Assembly: GCA_905479265.1 (NCBI GenBank)
Contig: CAJQLX010000050.1
Coordinates: 1 to 58,482 of the forward strand
DNA: 58,482 nucleotides
Direction of reading: 5' to 3'
From: an uncultured Alphaproteobacteria bacterium
GTDB lineage: Bacteria; Pseudomonadota; Alphaproteobacteria; UBA7985
Made by a program: the position numbers and the translations under genes. Shown one piece after another: positions 32,961-39,372 of this stretch (within the stretch, counting starts at the first letter, position 1; every line of letters starts with the position of its first letter). Under the pieces are notes generated by a model. It was not told where the DNA came from, searched no databases, and was given only the letters and a program-made list of their open reading frames with translations.

Positions 32961-33851
32961 TCAGGCGTCAAAGTCTGGCGCGATGTGCTCAACAAAGCGC
33001 GAAGCCGCGACAGAGAGCGTCCGCCCTTTGAGTTGAATCAGTTTCAGCACCGTGCGGGCCTGCGGGTGCTCGATAGGCCGAGCGACCAAACCCTTGGGCA
33101 GCGCGCGGTCTGCGTCGGATGTCATCAACCGAAAACTGATCATCTCTGAGTCGCGCACGCATTCGACGATGAAAAACAGGTTGGACGACTGAATCGAGCT
33201 GACCAAATCCACCTGAGTCGCCAGCGAAATGCGCTGTAGCACGTCATACAGAATCGTGTTTTCGCTGGGTGTGGCAAGGGGGAAGGGGGCGCAGTCCGCA
33301 AGGCTGACGCGGCTCTTTTTCGCAAGTGGATGGTTTTCGTCGAAAACGACATTCACGACTTGGCTCATGTTGCCCAGCAACATGATGTCCGGCGAAGATT
33401 GCGGTTCCAACACCACGGCGACATCAGCCTCGTACTGCTTCAGCATAGACTCGGCTTCGTCCTTGAATGTCTCGTAAACCTGAAAATCCACACCAGGAAA
33501 CTTTGCGAGATAAGACTGAATCTTCGTGGGAAAGTAATGCGGCAGCACAGCCGGCGAGCCAGCAAGGCGAATGGTCCCCAGGCGCACGCCTGAGAGATCA
33601 GCAATCTGTGATTTAACTTTCTCAAGATCCGCGAACTGCTGACGAACATGCATCAGCACCAGCTCCCCCGCTGTGTTCGGACGCAGGCCCGACGGGGTGC
33701 GCTCGAACAAGGGCGTCCCGAATTCTTCTTCCATGGCTAAAATGCGCCGATTGAGCGCGGAAGGGGTGATGGACGCTTGTATTGCCGCCTTACGCACAGA
33801 ACCAAATCGAGCAACAGCGTCCAACAGCTTGTATGTCGTTAGGTCTGACAT
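32961..33851 (-). CDS. LysR-family transcriptional regulator next to speD
   Basis: A 296-residue regulator: N-terminal winged helix-turn-helix (LLDAVARFGSVRKAAIQ, then TPSALNRRILAMEEEFG) and the two-lobed effector domain. It is divergent from speD across 183 bases, so speD is the likely target. It is convergent with the GNAT gene. The effector is unknown; if it controls speD it may sense a polyamine or S-adenosylmethionine-related compound (inference). Confidence 0.9.
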   Translation of the reverse strand: MSDLTTYKLLDAVARFGSVRKAAIQASITPSALNRRILAMEEEFGTPLFERTPSGLRPNTAGELVLMHVRQQFADLEKVKSQIADLSGVRLGTIRLAGSPAVLPHYFPTKIQSYLAKFPGVDFQVYETFKDEAESMLKQYEADVAVVLEPQSSPDIMLLGNMSQVVNVVFDENHPLAKKSRVSLADCAPFPLATPSENTILYDVLQRISLATQVDLVSSIQSSNLFFIVECVRDSEMISFRLMTSDADRALPKGLVARPIEHPQARTVLKLIQLKGRTLSVAASRFVEHIAPDFDA

Positions 33852-34034: not shown

Positions 34035-34418
34035 ATGACCACACCCAATGCCGCCCCTGACGCTGTCGGTTCGCATGTCCTGCTTGATGCTTGGGACTGT
34101 CACATGCCGCTGGCTCAAGCGCCGTTAGAGGCTGTGCTCGTGGCCGCTGCGCAGGCTGCGGGGGCAAAGGTTTTGGGCGTGTATTTCCACGATTTCGAAG
34201 CGACGGCAGCGGGCACAGTGCCGGGGCGTACGGGTGTTGTCCTGCTCGCTGAATCTCACATCACGGTCCATACGTGGCCCGAGAATGGGTTTATCGCCAT
34301 CGACATTTTCATGTGTGGGAGCTGCGATCCTGACCTCGCTGCCGATTACATCGTCAACGCCCTGCAACCCGCCCGGCACCACCGCACGCAGATTGCGCGC
34401 GGGAAGGGCGCTACATGA
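34035..34418 (+). CDS. speD: S-adenosylmethionine decarboxylase proenzyme
   Basis: A 127-residue class 1b enzyme producing decarboxylated SAM, the aminopropyl donor for spermidine. The self-cleavage site lies between Glu73 and Ser74 in LAESHITVHTWPE; Ser74 becomes the pyruvoyl cofactor. The catalytic Cys follows in FMCGSCDP. The gene overlaps the end of the convergent aminopropyltransferase gene by eight bases, so the two transcripts are complementary at their 3' ends. A LysR gene is divergent upstream. Confidence 0.94.
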   Translation: MTTPNAAPDAVGSHVLLDAWDCHMPLAQAPLEAVLVAAAQAAGAKVLGVYFHDFEATAAGTVPGRTGVVLLAESHITVHTWPENGFIAIDIFMCGSCDPDLAADYIVNALQPARHHRTQIARGKGAT

Positions 34419-35982
34419 ACCATTGGGCCCAGCCGTCGAGGTAATATTCGACCAGCGCATGGTTGGTGAGGCGATTGGCCTCGACCGGTCGTTTGGCCGT
34501 ATCCGCTGGAAATGACTGGGCGGCGCCCCAAATCGCCGGGTTGAGATATCGTAGGGAAAGACCGGAAAGACCGCCGTCAACCGCGCCCGCCTGAAATCGC
34601 CCGCGATGCCCCAAAGCAAAGCCCCAATCGCCAAAGCTCGGCACATAGCCGTGATAGGCAAGGGTTTCTGCGTCAGTCGCTGAAAAGCCCTCGGACAGGC
34701 TGGCATTGACCGACCAAAAGGCGTCGGGCGCAAACGTCGGTGATCCGGCTTGCGTGACAACCACAGCCGAGCCGCTGGTTGACTGCCGAAGCAGGCGGTA
34801 AAACTCGACGGAATAGAGCTTGGAAAGGGCGTAGTCCTTTGGGTCGGGTAAATCCGCAATAACAACGTCATACAGGGCGTCGGGTTTCTGGTCAGCCAAA
34901 CGCGTCTCCAGAAACGTCCATGCGTCTGCGTTGTAAACGCTCACGCGGGGATCATTCAGCGCATTTGCGTTCAATTGGCGCAGGGTCGCATGGGTCGAGA
35001 ACAGCGTCGTTACCGCTGGGTCCAGATCGACCAAATCGACCTGTTTCACTGTTTCATGCTTGAGCACTTCCCGCGCCGCTAAACCATCGCCACCCCCCAG
35101 AATCAGCACCCGCTCGGCCCGCGCTGCGCCCAAGATTGCGGGGTGGACCAGCAGTTCGTGATAGCGGTGTTCGTCCAGGCTATCGAACTGAATGCCGTTG
35201 TTCAGATACAGCCGAAACCGGTCGAGGTACTTGGTGACAATGATCTTTTGATAGGGCGTGGTCTGGCTGTAGATGATGTCGTCTTCGAAAATCGCCGTAT
35301 CGGTGAGGGAAACGAGGCGCTCGGTATTCATGAGACCACCGACCAGCACCACAGCGGCCGCAAGCCAGAACACTTGCATGGCGCGACTCACACTGTCCCA
35401 GAACACCAGCAACGTAATCCCGGCAATGGCGAGGTTGAGCGTGCCGAACAGCAGGCTGGATGAAATCAGCCCGAGCAGCGGGACAATGATGATGGGAAAC
35501 ATCAGCGAGGCGACAAGGGCGCCCACGTAGTCGAGCGAGAGGACGTTCTCAAACCGAAACTTCGCGGCGCCCATCTCGTTCAACATGCGCACGATCAGGG
35601 GGATTTCCATACCGCTGAGCGCGCCCGTTGCGATGATAAGCACCAGCAGCAGCGCGCCGGTTGAGCCAACGTAGGCATAGACGAGAAACAGCAGCGGTGC
35701 CGATGCACCGCCAATCAGCGCGAGGGCCATTTGCCCCCAGATAAACCCGACCCGCGCCGTCCCGACATAGCGCGACACCCAAGCACCAATCCCCATCGAG
35801 GTGAGAAACAGGCCAATCACAAAGCTGAACTGACGAACGCTATCCCCGATCAGAAAGGTCGAGGATGTGGCGATGACCAGCTCGTAGAAAATGCCAGCGA
35901 TCGACACCAAAAAGGTCGCCGCAAGCAGCCAAAAGATCCTCAGCCGGCTGAATCGGGAATCGTCAGCAGCGGTGCCTGACAC
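34411..35982 (-). CDS. speE: Membrane-anchored polyamine aminopropyltransferase (spermidine synthase family)
   Basis: A 523-residue two-part protein. The N-terminal part (about residues 10-230) has seven or eight hydrophobic helices. The C-terminal part is an aminopropyltransferase: SAM-like binding GGGDGLAAREVL near residue 295, the acidic VDLDP, and the catalytic Asp region IADLPDP near 373. Typical soluble SpeE is about 290 residues and lacks the membrane part. It is the last gene of the DUF4178/DUF350 operon, starting three bases after the DUF350 stop. The membrane anchor suggests that the acceptor is a membrane or envelope component, or that the product is delivered at the membrane. Confidence 0.9.
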   Translation of the reverse strand: MSGTAADDSRFSRLRIFWLLAATFLVSIAGIFYELVIATSSTFLIGDSVRQFSFVIGLFLTSMGIGAWVSRYVGTARVGFIWGQMALALIGGASAPLLFLVYAYVGSTGALLLVLIIATGALSGMEIPLIVRMLNEMGAAKFRFENVLSLDYVGALVASLMFPIIIVPLLGLISSSLLFGTLNLAIAGITLLVFWDSVSRAMQVFWLAAAVVLVGGLMNTERLVSLTDTAIFEDDIIYSQTTPYQKIIVTKYLDRFRLYLNNGIQFDSLDEHRYHELLVHPAILGAARAERVLILGGGDGLAAREVLKHETVKQVDLVDLDPAVTTLFSTHATLRQLNANALNDPRVSVYNADAWTFLETRLADQKPDALYDVVIADLPDPKDYALSKLYSVEFYRLLRQSTSGSAVVVTQAGSPTFAPDAFWSVNASLSEGFSATDAETLAYHGYVPSFGDWGFALGHRGRFQAGAVDGGLSGLSLRYLNPAIWGAAQSFPADTAKRPVEANRLTNHALVEYYLDGWAQWFM

Positions 35983-35985
35983 CGA

Positions 35986-36198
35986 TTAGGACCGGATGAC
36001 AGCGGCGACAATCAGGGCGATGGCAAGGAATACAGCGCCGAGCAGAACCGCCATGGCCATGTTTTTCTCTTGCTGGATTTCCCGTGTGATCGAGAACGGC
36101 GTGAGCCGGTCAAACAGCCAGTAACTGCCGGCCAGCAACGCCAGACCAAGGCCTGCGAAAAAAATGGTGTTCAAAACTTCCAACATAAAAGCAGTCAT
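35986..36198 (-). CDS. DUF350 family membrane protein
   Basis: A 70-residue protein with two hydrophobic helices (NTIFFAGLGLALLAGSYWLF and MAVLLGAVFLAIALIVAAVI) joined by a charged loop with the ITREIQQEKN motif typical of DUF350. DUF350 proteins are inner-membrane proteins of unknown function, often repeated in tandem; this is a single half-length unit. Its start overlaps the stop of the 29-residue ORF upstream (ATGA), indicating coupled translation. As I recall from comparative genomics, DUF350 is often a neighbour of DUF4178 and polyamine genes. Confidence 0.87.
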   Translation of the reverse strand: MTAFMLEVLNTIFFAGLGLALLAGSYWLFDRLTPFSITREIQQEKNMAMAVLLGAVFLAIALIVAAVIRS

Positions 36199-36284
36199 AC
36201 GGCTTTCCTTCGTTTCAGGGTCTCAGACGATTGCGTCATCTTCAGCAGCAGCAGCAGCAACAAAAACAGCGGGCGAGGCATCAT
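36195..36284 (-). CDS. Putative 29-residue coupled micro-ORF with leucine-rich helix
   Basis: Starts at an ATG that overlaps the stop of the 55-residue ORF (ATGA) and ends in a TGA that overlaps the start of the DUF350 gene (ATGA). Both junctions are the overlaps used for translational coupling. The product starts MMPRPLFLLLLLLL, with seven consecutive Leu, five from a CTG run, then a basic tail (LKRRKAV). It would insert in the membrane. Alternatively it may only serve to carry ribosomes between the flanking genes. No family is recognised. Confidence 0.5.
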   Translation of the reverse strand: MMPRPLFLLLLLLLKMTQSSETLKRRKAV

Positions 36285-36448
36285 TTGGGGATGCCGCCAG
36301 CGAGGTAGGGGCCACCATTGCTGCCCATTCGAACGCTACGATCCAGATCGGCGTTGCTGTAGCCAACGGCACTTTCCGTCAGTCGGAACGCACCAACGGT
36401 GATGCCGACAAACAGGCTGATGATCGCAATGCGGAATATCCATTTCAT
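36281..36448 (-). CDS. Small single-helix membrane protein between DUF4178 and DUF350 genes
   Basis: A 55-residue ORF starting nine bases after the large DUF4178 stop. The N-terminus is a signal anchor (MKWIFRIAIISLFVGITVGA), followed by a short polar segment and a glycine-rich tail (MGSNGGPYLAGGIPK). It has no Cys, so it is not a lipoprotein. Its stop overlaps the next ORF start. Position within a tight operon and a protein-like N-terminus support it as a real gene; family unknown. Confidence 0.65.
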   Translation of the reverse strand: MKWIFRIAIISLFVGITVGAFRLTESAVGYSNADLDRSVRMGSNGGPYLAGGIPK

Positions 36449-36457
36449 GGCTTCATC

Positions 36458-37816
36458 CTACCAATCTGTTCCCGACCAATTTGTGATAGTGGACCACATT
36501 CGCCTCAAAGCTGACAGTGCAGCGATAAAGAGGAAGAGCAGTGCGGTCATGCCCAGCCATTTCACCGCACCCAGATTTTCGCGGACACTGTAGCGGACTG
36601 TGCTGATTTGCTCGATTCCCATGTTGCTGCCGGTCCAGACGCCCGTTTCTGGAATATCAAGCTCCAGCGTATAGTCACCCGCCGTCTCAGCCCGGAAACG
36701 AATACGCGTGTTGTTCGTTCCCTCAGACCAGCTTTCACCGCCTTCGACGCCGCGATAGACGCCGACCTCTCGACCGACTTCGAACACGGGAATGTCTTCA
36801 GGATCATAGATTCCGGTTTCGATCCAACCCCAGGCGTTTTGAGAGTCGGCCTGCACGTAAATTTCGACACCGCGACCCGCAGCCGTGACCTCGAATGGCA
36901 GTTCGAGCGGCAGGGCGGATATTTGAGTCGTGCCTTGCAGAACGATCGGTTTGTCATCGTTTGCCGCCGCCATCGCAAACAGGGTGATCGCAACGAAAAT
37001 GAGCGCGACCAAGGATGCAAAGTTCAGCGTGGGGCTTTTGGGCCAAGGGCGCAAAGGGTGGGGGACGTTGTGGCGCAGCGTGCCCCTGCGCAAACCAAAT
37101 TCCAGCTCGATCTCACGCTGGTTCAAATAGGAAATCTCGTCGAGTTCCCTTTCACCCGTGACCTCTCCACTGTCCAACTCTGGCTTGGAAACCTCAAACC
37201 CGCGCGGTTCTCCGCTGGGCTGTCCGGTGATGAAGATCTGCGCCAAATCATGCGAGGGCGCATAGAATTGACCGTAGCGCTTGTCGCCGAGGCTGGGTTT
37301 CCACGAAAATTCACCTTCGAGCGACTCAATGACGGCGGTTCCGCTTTCGTAGTATTGAAACAGCATGCCTTCGCGTCGGGCCGTTGGCGGGTTTTCCATC
37401 TGCTCGATTTCGCCCTTGCCATAGAGCGGAAAGGATCGCCGCGGTCTCACCCGCCGGGAAAAGGTCGCAACGCCCGTCTCAAAGGTCAGCCACGCATAGC
37501 CATGGGTTGGGGAATACAGCTGGTGCTCGGCCCAATGCCAGGCCGAAACCCCTTCGTATTCACCCATGCCGATGGTGCCGATGATCGTCCATTTGACGCC
37601 CCGGATCATGCCGCTCATCCCAATGGAAAACGGGGTGCGAGGGCGGTGTTGAAGCTGCAGTTGCAGGTCTCGAACGACGCGGAAATTCTCATTCGGGTCA
37701 AGCTCGCTGCCACAGGAGCCACAGAACGCACTCGCCACCCGCCCCCCGCCCAGCAAATCCAGACCTGCGCCGCAACTCGCGCAGTTGACGGCATCAACCG
37801 TGTCGGGGCTGCGCAT
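36458..37816 (-). CDS. Membrane DUF4178 protein with N-terminal zinc ribbon and periplasmic domain
   Basis: A 452-residue protein of unknown biochemical function. Order: a zinc-ribbon-like N-terminus (CASC near residue 13, CGSC near 33); a DUF4178-type beta-rich domain (about 45-215), with the characteristic GMSGMIRGVKWTIIG and WHWAEHQLYSP stretches; a transmembrane helix near 270-290; a beta-rich domain of about 120 residues that should be periplasmic; and a second helix near 425-445. The start overlaps the stop of the upstream DUF4178 gene by one base. It looks like a sensor or scaffold linking the cytosol and periplasm; that is inference. Confidence 0.82.
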   Translation of the reverse strand: MRSPDTVDAVNCASCGAGLDLLGGGRVASAFCGSCGSELDPNENFRVVRDLQLQLQHRPRTPFSIGMSGMIRGVKWTIIGTIGMGEYEGVSAWHWAEHQLYSPTHGYAWLTFETGVATFSRRVRPRRSFPLYGKGEIEQMENPPTARREGMLFQYYESGTAVIESLEGEFSWKPSLGDKRYGQFYAPSHDLAQIFITGQPSGEPRGFEVSKPELDSGEVTGERELDEISYLNQREIELEFGLRRGTLRHNVPHPLRPWPKSPTLNFASLVALIFVAITLFAMAAANDDKPIVLQGTTQISALPLELPFEVTAAGRGVEIYVQADSQNAWGWIETGIYDPEDIPVFEVGREVGVYRGVEGGESWSEGTNNTRIRFRAETAGDYTLELDIPETGVWTGSNMGIEQISTVRYSVRENLGAVKWLGMTALLFLFIAALSALRRMWSTITNWSGTDW

Positions 37817-38562
37817 CAGCTTGCCCTTTCGACGTCAAAGGGGCTGTACCAGCGCCCCAGGAACCAGTCGGGATCCGTATCGCTTGCGTCGTCGATCTCG
37901 CAGCTCAGCAGGGATCCACCGCGTCCTTCAGCGTTGATATAGCGGTAGGTTTGTCCGATCTCGATAGGTTCAGGCCATGAGCCTTCGAACCCCAAGCAGG
38001 TCGCTTGTTCGGCTTCGGTGACTTTGTATTCAGCGTTTTCGTAGATCAGCGTGTCGCCGGGTTTGAGGAACCGGGCGGTTGACCCATCCATCGCTTTGCT
38101 GGGCGTTGATTTGGCCCATTCGTGATCAACAGCCTCGCGCTTGACCGACAGGTCGGCAGCCTCAAGCTGTCGCTGGATAACGACGTCGCCTTCATCCACG
38201 CTCAACCAATAAATTTCGTCCGTGTCGGCAATGTCGGTGCGGGCAACCCAGTATTCGTCCCAAATACCGCGCCCGTAACTATACTGCGCGCGGCCATAAA
38301 TCTCGAAGGAGCCATGGGCCAGATCAAAGCGGTCGCCCACAGCCAGCAGCGCCTCGCCCATGTGCACTTGCCCCGCAGAACCGGCGGCGCTGATGTCGTC
38401 TTTATTGACGATCAGCGTGGTCTGGCAATAGGCGCAGGCGTGGAGTCGGGCGCTACGGGGTGGGGTCGACAGTTCGGCACCACAGTTTGGGCAGGAAGCA
38501 GACACAGCAATCGCGTTCTGTTGATCGTTTATAATCCGATGCGGAGTATGCACCTGCATCAA
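37816..38562 (-). CDS. Cytosolic DUF4178 protein with zinc ribbon
   Basis: A 248-residue protein, first gene of the membrane-polyamine operon. The N-terminus has a zinc ribbon (CPNCGAE near residue 24 and CAYC near 43). The rest is a DUF4178 domain (AVGDRFDLAHGSFEIYGRAQ, DEYWVARTDIADTDEIYWLS). No membrane helix is seen. DUF4178 function is unknown; the family is often encoded with DUF350 and aminopropyltransferase genes. Two paralogues in a row, one soluble and one membrane-bound, suggest a complex. Confidence 0.83.
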   Translation of the reverse strand: MMQVHTPHRIINDQQNAIAVSASCPNCGAELSTPPRSARLHACAYCQTTLIVNKDDISAAGSAGQVHMGEALLAVGDRFDLAHGSFEIYGRAQYSYGRGIWDEYWVARTDIADTDEIYWLSVDEGDVVIQRQLEAADLSVKREAVDHEWAKSTPSKAMDGSTARFLKPGDTLIYENAEYKVTEAEQATCLGFEGSWPEPIEIGQTYRYINAEGRGGSLLSCEIDDASDTDPDWFLGRWYSPFDVERAS

Positions 38563-38665: not shown

Positions 38666-38704
38666 GGTTTTGACCGGTTTTGTCCGGTTTAAGCCGTTTT
38701 GAGC
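38666..38704. repeat. Four imperfect 10-bp direct repeats (GGTTTTGACC type)
   Basis: The units GGTTTTGACC, GGTTTTGTCC, GGTTTAAGCC and GTTTTGAGC follow one another with a 10-bp period. They span the stop of the cupin gene and lie about 100 bases upstream of the DUF4178 operon start. The period equals about one helical turn, as in cooperative binding sites. No known regulator site is recognised. Confidence 0.6.
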
Positions 38705-39372
38705 TGCGCTTCGATCTCGGCCCAATCATCACGCGGCGTAACCGCGCATTGGCCTTGGATGTCATTCAACCACGAAAAAACCGATAGGAATGGCGTTTCA
38801 TAGCTGCGTGTCGCGTGAACGGCATTGGGCGGGTTAAAAATGATGGATCCAGCGCCATGATCTTGCCAGTCGCCGTCGTCGAAACGCCACCCTGTGCGGG
38901 GCGAAAGGTTGATGTAGGTTTCTGGCGCGTCATGCTGATGATCGCGGTACAACGTCCGCGGCCCAAGCATAAACAACCCCAAGGTAAAATCATCGTGGTG
39001 GAAGCCACAGGCGCCGGGTCCAATCAGCAGTGTATGAAGGTTAGTCTGAATGTAGCCCGCACCCAAATCTGATTCCGGTGGATAGTATTTCATGTCGTCC
39101 TGCTGCCACCGTAAATCGTCCTTTGCTGCGATCAAACACTGACGCAAGGGTTGGAGAGCAGGGGTCGATATGGTGCCAATGGCCGTATCCAAAACCGCTT
39201 CGTGGCAGGGAATGCGGGGGGGAAGATCCGCAAAGGCGTCGGGGTGCAGGTCCGTGGACTCCACGCGCGCTATCGTCCGTGCCGCAGCGGGGACAGCAGC
39301 AGCGCCGTCGCTGGCCAAAAGGGCTGTAACCGCATCAATAACGGCGCGAACGCGTGCTTGTTTGTCCGACAT
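38689..39372 (-). CDS. DMSP-lyase-family (DddL/DddQ-like) cupin
   Basis: A 227-residue protein with a C-terminal cupin. The metal-site motif is RDHQHDAPETYINLS, a close relative of the HxHxxxExY pattern of DddL/DddQ-type dimethylsulfoniopropionate lyases; a later His in NAVHATRSYETP completes the usual ligand set. The FTLGLFMLGPRTLY lead-in also matches that family. DddL cleaves DMSP to acrylate and dimethyl sulfide, but family members with other activities are common. It is last in a four-gene catabolic operon whose other enzymes do not form a standard acrylate route, so DMSP is only one candidate substrate. Confidence 0.72.
   Translation of the reverse strand: MSDKQARVRAVIDAVTALLASDGAAAVPAAARTIARVESTDLHPDAFADLPPRIPCHEAVLDTAIGTISTPALQPLRQCLIAAKDDLRWQQDDMKYYPPESDLGAGYIQTNLHTLLIGPGACGFHHDDFTLGLFMLGPRTLYRDHQHDAPETYINLSPRTGWRFDDGDWQDHGAGSIIFNPPNAVHATRSYETPFLSVFSWLNDIQGQCAVTPRDDWAEIEAQLKTA

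Follow-up and report, generated by a model that had tools for sequence, protein, structure and literature searches.

The cassette occupies positions 34035-38562 of the window, the whole 58,482-nucleotide stretch of alphaproteobacterial DNA that was analysed, and consists of speD facing a tight minus-strand operon (Table 1). The ORF list and translations place all seven ORFs where an earlier sequence-only reading had put them and bear out its account of their packing and of speD facing the last gene. The minus-strand genes are separated by gaps of 3-9 nt or overlap by 1-4 nt, and the convergent speD and 7TM-SpeE genes overlap by 8 bp.

Table 1. Genes and features of the cassette and its two flanks (coordinates of the window)
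Feature	Position	Strand	Description	Family match
LysR	32961-33851		Flanking gene	
speD	34035-34418	+	Class 1b AdoMet decarboxylase	PF02675 8e-30; TIGR03330 108 bits (cut-off 75.65)
7TM-SpeE	34411-35982	-	Seven-TM domain fused to a SpeE-like aminopropyltransferase domain (~residues 235-460)	Spermine_synth (Pfam) E 5e-32; NCBIfam NF002956/PRK03612 578 bits (cut-off 472)
DUF350	35986-36198	-	Small membrane protein, 70 aa; conserved beside 7TM-SpeE	PF03994 1.7e-13
29-aa ORF	36195-36284	-	Doubtful gene; no relative	No Pfam/NCBIfam family
Lys-tailed anchored peptide	36281-36448	-	Proposed aminopropyl acceptor; 55 aa with one N-terminal TM, C-terminus ..YLAGGIPK	
Codon of the C-terminal Lys	36284-36286	-	AAA; TGA stop at 36281-36283	
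Membrane DUF4178	36458-37816	-	Zinc ribbon and DUF4178-like domain, TM helix, beta-sandwich, TM helix	
Soluble DUF4178	37816-38562	-	DUF4178 with zinc ribbon	PF13785 7e-16
Cupin	38689-39372	-	DMSP-lyase-family cupin flanking the cassette	PF16867

The family assignments of the earlier reading were upheld as well, by Pfam for AdoMet_dc, Spermine_synth, DUF350 and the soluble DUF4178 protein and by profile comparison for the membrane DUF4178 protein. The translation of speD contains the ESHITVHTWPE..MCG motif. The membrane DUF4178 protein had no match to the Pfam DUF4178 model; it aligned to the soluble DUF4178 profile with an hhalign probability of 99.4, and its Novosphingobium counterpart is named DUF4178 in RefSeq. 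Both proteins carry a zinc ribbon with four invariant cysteines: C12, C15, C32 and C35 in the membrane protein and C24, C27, C43 and C46 in the soluble one. In the AF2 model of the membrane protein (pLDDT 78.6), the N-terminal part is beta-rich and a beta-sandwich lies between TM helices 262-286 and 418-446. A Foldseek search with this protein gave no convincing whole-protein match, and partial similarity of the beta-sandwich to the collagen-binding domain 3jqw.

Pfam scans of the genome, which is 96% complete, matched AdoMet_dc only in the cassette speD, Spermine_synth only in 7TM-SpeE, leaving no other SpeE, and DUF4178 only in the soluble DUF4178 protein. Neither the ATP-grasp family GSP_synth (PF03738) nor DUF1190 was matched in this genome (G000). 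PspA (PF04012) likewise had no match anywhere in it, which ruled out the cassette as a PSP operon. A genome-wide search for putrescine-forming decarboxylases of two PLP-decarboxylase folds returned only LysA, with no PF01276; the absence of a putrescine-forming enzyme noted in the earlier reading therefore holds genome-wide for these folds.

7TM-SpeE was missing from five genomes of the same genus that are 63-94% complete. In one of these, G001, the flanking ALDH, cupin, LysR and GNAT genes form an uninterrupted run that lacks the cassette. This empty site indicates gain or loss of the whole cassette as one block at the junction of the LysR and cupin genes. Its GC content does not stand apart. 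In the relative L205, the cupin gene adjoins the LysR gene.

The sequence-only reading had staked itself on the gene order being kept in relatives. A scan of the genome collection yielded at least 579 loci, the best 80 of which were analysed. Dozens of these best 80 loci, from Rhodobacteraceae, sphingomonads, Acidobacteria, Gemmatimonadetes, epsilonproteobacteria and Leptospiraceae, indeed have the soluble DUF4178 gene followed by membrane DUF4178, a short gap, DUF350 and 7TM-SpeE. The order is thus conserved across several phyla, far beyond chance. Variant loci were of three kinds: those with both DUF4178 parts fused into one protein of ~650-680 aa; those, in Massilia and Burkholderia, whose DUF4178 and SpeD genes lie together as a block on the other strand; and those with PspA, DUF2170 and a large lipoprotein added.

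Within the short gap before DUF350 lies a small ORF; its product has an N-terminal TM segment, a diverse sequence and Lys as its last residue. In the window this is the 55-aa ORF, in which K2 and K55 are the only Lys residues. The earlier reading had listed it as one of two micro-ORFs and passed it over; it is conserved by position and features and proved to be the most informative part of the cassette. The other, the 29-aa ORF, had no relative among the ORFs of the best 80 loci, a low-power test at such length; it is probably not a gene and was dropped as a cassette component.

When gap ORFs were picked by hydrophobicity alone, blind to their ending, 72 of 74 distinct ORFs ended in Lys (57/59 and 15/15), a count that, like those below, overstates independence because the Lys-tailed sequences are related. 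By comparison, 7.3% of 1158 background ORFs ended in Lys. One exception, L084, reflects a wrong-frame choice, another ORF at this locus ending in ..RYFGGK; at the other, L144, the DUF4178 protein itself ends in ..SGGGHK. A Lys-ended anchored protein was present in 36 of forty more loci, which were taken after the pattern had been noticed and a few of which duplicate earlier species. The remaining four (L147, L158, L177 and L180) are loci at the end of a contig or loci where no operon neighbours were detected. No recognisable peptide was found within reach of 7TM-SpeE at L050, L054, L064, L091, L092 and L147.

The Lys ending is not confined to micropeptides. Among proteins defined by position, it was found in 12/12 lipoproteins directly upstream of a long DUF350 and in 7/7 DUF4178 proteins directly before DUF350. 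It was also found at 5/5 named plasmid loci (Novosphingobium, Gemmatirosa, Ensifer, Tritonibacter and Alteromonas). DUF4178 proteins mostly have acidic ends where the peptide is separate and end in ..HK where it is fused to them. Overall, the terminal Lys is common to ~10 distinct tail types and to four architectures: single-TM micropeptide, small lipoprotein, 300- to 510-aa lipoprotein and DUF4178 C-terminal tail. Tails that are basic and rich in Gly/Ser are found across the family, and no Pfam family was found for the Lys-tailed proteins tested. Terminal Arg occurred in none of 104 distinct proteins, a set selected in part by ending; the fair test is therefore given by the subsets defined by position. 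The terminal codon in this set was AAA in 74 and AAG in 30, followed by TAA (46), TGA (33) or TAG (25). The use of all three stops and both Lys codons ruled out that the terminal Lys stems from an AAATGA stop/start overlap.

The AF2 model of 7TM-SpeE (pLDDT 92.4) comprises seven long helices followed by a SpeE fold, and its closest folds are true polyamine aminopropyltransferases. In an alignment that includes E. coli SpeE, the motifs GGGDG, YHE and DxPDP and residues D299, D377, D380, Y274, H275, Q245 and Q265 are invariant. The canonical acceptor-side Tyr (Tyr226 in E. coli SpeE) is replaced by Phe450, and this position is Phe in 49/49 sequences. These residues suggest an enzyme in which donor binding and catalysis are retained and the acceptor pocket is altered.

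Such a membrane-bound enzyme might make spermidine or another polyamine from a free amine, imported putrescine or some other, and the peptide would then be only a regulatory or assembly subunit. The retained SpeE catalytic motifs GGGDG and D-x-x-D-P, the closest folds and the NCBIfam name, polyamine aminopropyltransferase, all agree with this. Nevertheless, the score of 7TM-SpeE against the speE equivalog TIGR00417, 125 bits, lies below the cut-off of 249.55; the acceptor-side Tyr has become Phe, a suggestive change; the genome search returned no PLP-fold putrescine-forming decarboxylase; and the invariant terminal Lys is left unexplained. An ordinary spermidine synthase was rejected on these grounds. 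In addition, fusions of this type, in work by Li from 2019, reportedly did not complement a spermidine synthase deletion. We therefore consider a synthase of free polyamines rather unlikely. Of the sequence-only reading, the idea of a membrane aminopropyl-transfer system whose acceptor may not be a polyamine agrees well with these findings; its other candidate acceptor, imported putrescine, has become less likely.

The invariance of the terminal Lys suggests this residue as the missing target of the enzyme. The side chain of Lys has the same four-carbon amine arm as putrescine. The 55-aa product is a conserved partner of 7TM-SpeE, and its position and ending suggest it as the best candidate acceptor. 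Alternatively, the terminal Lys could serve recognition rather than modification: it might contact DUF350, 7TM-SpeE or anionic lipids, or act as a pseudo-substrate inhibitor, the acceptor being a lipid or another envelope amine. Basic Gly/Ser-rich tails throughout the family would suit such a role, as would the constant adjacency of the peptide to membrane partners. Three features make it unlikely: the Lys end persists when the tail sits on DUF4178; Arg never replaces Lys, which argues against a simple charge role; and the Lys tail tracks 7TM-SpeE and is missing in the sibling ATP-grasp systems.

The last of these features emerges from the E. coli loci ygiBC and yjfIJKLMC, in which DUF1190 lipoproteins (with DUF350 in yjf) are paired with YgiC and YjfC, annotated as peptide--spermidine ligases (Pederick 2023, by its title as given in PMC12568646). 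YgiB ends in ..SSRSMGG and YjfM in ..RGHWGG. The DUF1190 relatives that could be read mostly end in GG, GS or SS, and none ends in Lys. The two systems would share polyamine chemistry on peptides, and they have in common a DUF350 neighbour (yjfL) and a Gly/Ser-rich lipoprotein tail encoded next to the enzyme. They differ in that YgiC/YjfC are ATP-grasp ligases acting on a carboxylate, with Gly-ended tails, whereas the cassette encodes an aminopropyltransferase, with Lys-ended tails. This correlation, of Gly tails with carboxyl-ligating enzymes and Lys tails with an amine-directed aminopropyltransferase, would be expected if the last residue were the substrate. The conserved Gly/Ser tails of the DUF1190 lipoproteins in this branch (L184, L186 and L187-L202) raise the possibility that the C-terminal residue is the ligase target in the peptide-spermidine-ligase systems.

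The loops of 7TM-SpeE differ in charge: the mean number of K+R is 2.3-3.2 in loops 2, 4 and 6 and 0.2-0.8 in loops 1, 3 and 5. Together with the odd number of TM helices, this bias predicts an N-terminus inside the cell and a catalytic domain outside the cytoplasm. The peptide is positive on its N-side, and versions with a lipobox occur at L105, L111, L031 and in Alteromonas. A flavin amine oxidase with an RR motif (Tat-like) is encoded directly downstream of 7TM-SpeE in 24/123 loci (e.g., L066, L078, L105 and L212). Four of five RR-motif flavoproteins tested matched the amine oxidase family PF01593, and one had a Pfam TAT signal. The window contains no such oxidase; where present, it might oxidise the product of the enzyme. 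The N-side charge, the lipobox versions and the RR-motif flavoproteins place the peptide tail, by prediction, on the same outer side as the catalytic domain.

The acceptor could also be the peptide, but with the opposite topology or with a modification that precedes export and takes place in the cytoplasm. In favour of this, the cytoplasm is where dcAdoMet is made and where the soluble zinc-ribbon DUF4178 protein, having no TM segment, would also reside. This arrangement is nonetheless quite improbable given the positive-inside pattern of 7TM-SpeE with its seven helices, the lipoprotein forms of the peptide and the Tat-like amine oxidases adjoining the enzyme.

We consider it reasonably probable, from these sequence comparisons, that the cassette is a peptide-tagging machine in which the membrane enzyme aminopropylates the C-terminal Lys of the peptide using dcAdoMet made by SpeD. 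The gene content, its conservation, the invariant terminal Lys and the conserved catalytic residues are the observations on which this tagging model builds. It would account for the acceptor, for Lys without Arg, for survival of the ending across architectures and for its restriction to one branch of enzymes. Specifically, SpeD would make dcAdoMet in the cytoplasm, and the SpeE-like domain would move its aminopropyl group onto the epsilon-amine of the C-terminal Lys of the 55-aa peptide. We hypothesize that the product is a C-terminal aminopropyl-lysine, which would be hypusine-like and possibly extended by repeated rounds. Because the peptide tail and the catalytic domain are both predicted to lie at the outer face of the inner membrane, the model requires passage of dcAdoMet through this membrane, perhaps by way of DUF350 or the 7-TM domain. 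For the DUF4178 proteins we hypothesize a role as cytoplasmic and transmembrane scaffold or sensor, and for the cassette a purpose in membrane or envelope homeostasis. Two points count against the tagging model: a charged metabolite, dcAdoMet, would need to reach the outer face, and some 7TM-SpeE genes have no recognisable peptide nearby. The broader claim is a serious possibility, somewhat short of probable: a new post-translational modification, in which the C-terminal Lys of a membrane-anchored peptide would be aminopropylated once or repeatedly at the outer face of the inner membrane, giving AdoMetDC and 7TM-SpeE a polyamine-independent function.

Deoxyhypusine synthase, which is cytosolic, transfers an aminobutyl group from spermidine onto an internal Lys of eIF5A. 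In the cassette, too, a single Lys of a single protein would gain a polyamine-derived arm, but the enzymes are unrelated. In teichoic-acid D-alanylation, a membrane enzyme works together with DltX, a small peptide that has one TM segment and a conserved extracytoplasmic C-terminus. There a labile ester is passed on, whereas here a stable C-N bond would be expected; no homology is claimed. Neither aminopropyl-lysine nor aminopropylated peptides were found in a search of the literature available to us.

Also related to the cassette are the clusters that Li reportedly described in 2019, in which MFS/7TM-spermidine-synthase fusions lie with AdoMetDC and DUF350; an acceptor other than putrescine is said to have been proposed, and a peptide acceptor is not known to have been proposed there. 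The enzyme fusion, the AdoMetDC class and the DUF350 neighbour are the same, and the Lys-tailed anchored peptide is identified here.

The association of the enzyme with DUF350 and DUF4178, which the sequence-only reading had brought up, is documented: Ravi 2024 (PMC11237479) describes a PspA-CesT/Tir operon group with a 7TM spermidine-synthase-like protein, DUF350, DUF4178 and a Ctha_1186 lipoprotein, and names actinobacterial DUF4247 proteins for a variant operon. The word lysine is missing from the main text of that paper. The cassette shares 7TM-SpeE, DUF350 and DUF4178 with this group (group 2); it differs in having no PspA, two DUF4178 proteins and a micropeptide instead of the lipoprotein. 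In relatives with the Ravi 2024 layout, the lipoprotein itself ends in Lys. Because the gene association is published, the cassette is a PspA-free version of a known layout, and the candidate Lys-tailed acceptor is its new element.

Many bacteria of several phyla carry an AdoMetDC with a membrane SpeE-like enzyme whose acceptor is in question. An adjacent encoded peptide or lipoprotein with an invariant terminal Lys turns that question into one mass-spectrometry experiment. If the tagging model is true, a hypusine-like modification would be added to the bacterial envelope, and many bacterial AdoMetDC/7TM-SpeE pairs would have a polyamine-independent function. Together with the peptide-spermidine ligases YgiC/YjfC, they would define a class in which polyamine chemistry is used to tag membrane peptides and which, in some bacteria, is tied to the PspA stress machinery.

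Two further observations concern outlying loci. Frames of 850-1280 aa (e.g., G096:C111:60393-61652 and G193:C28:109397-110656) align to the 7TM-SpeE profile over a stretch that runs from the TM part to about position 413; they make up a different, larger membrane family. Finally, a plasmid of Alteromonas mediterranea (L216) carries a variant cassette in which DUF4178 and DUF350 are accompanied by a TelA-like (toxic-anion-resistance) protein and by a lipoprotein of 510 aa ending in ..GPSSGK.
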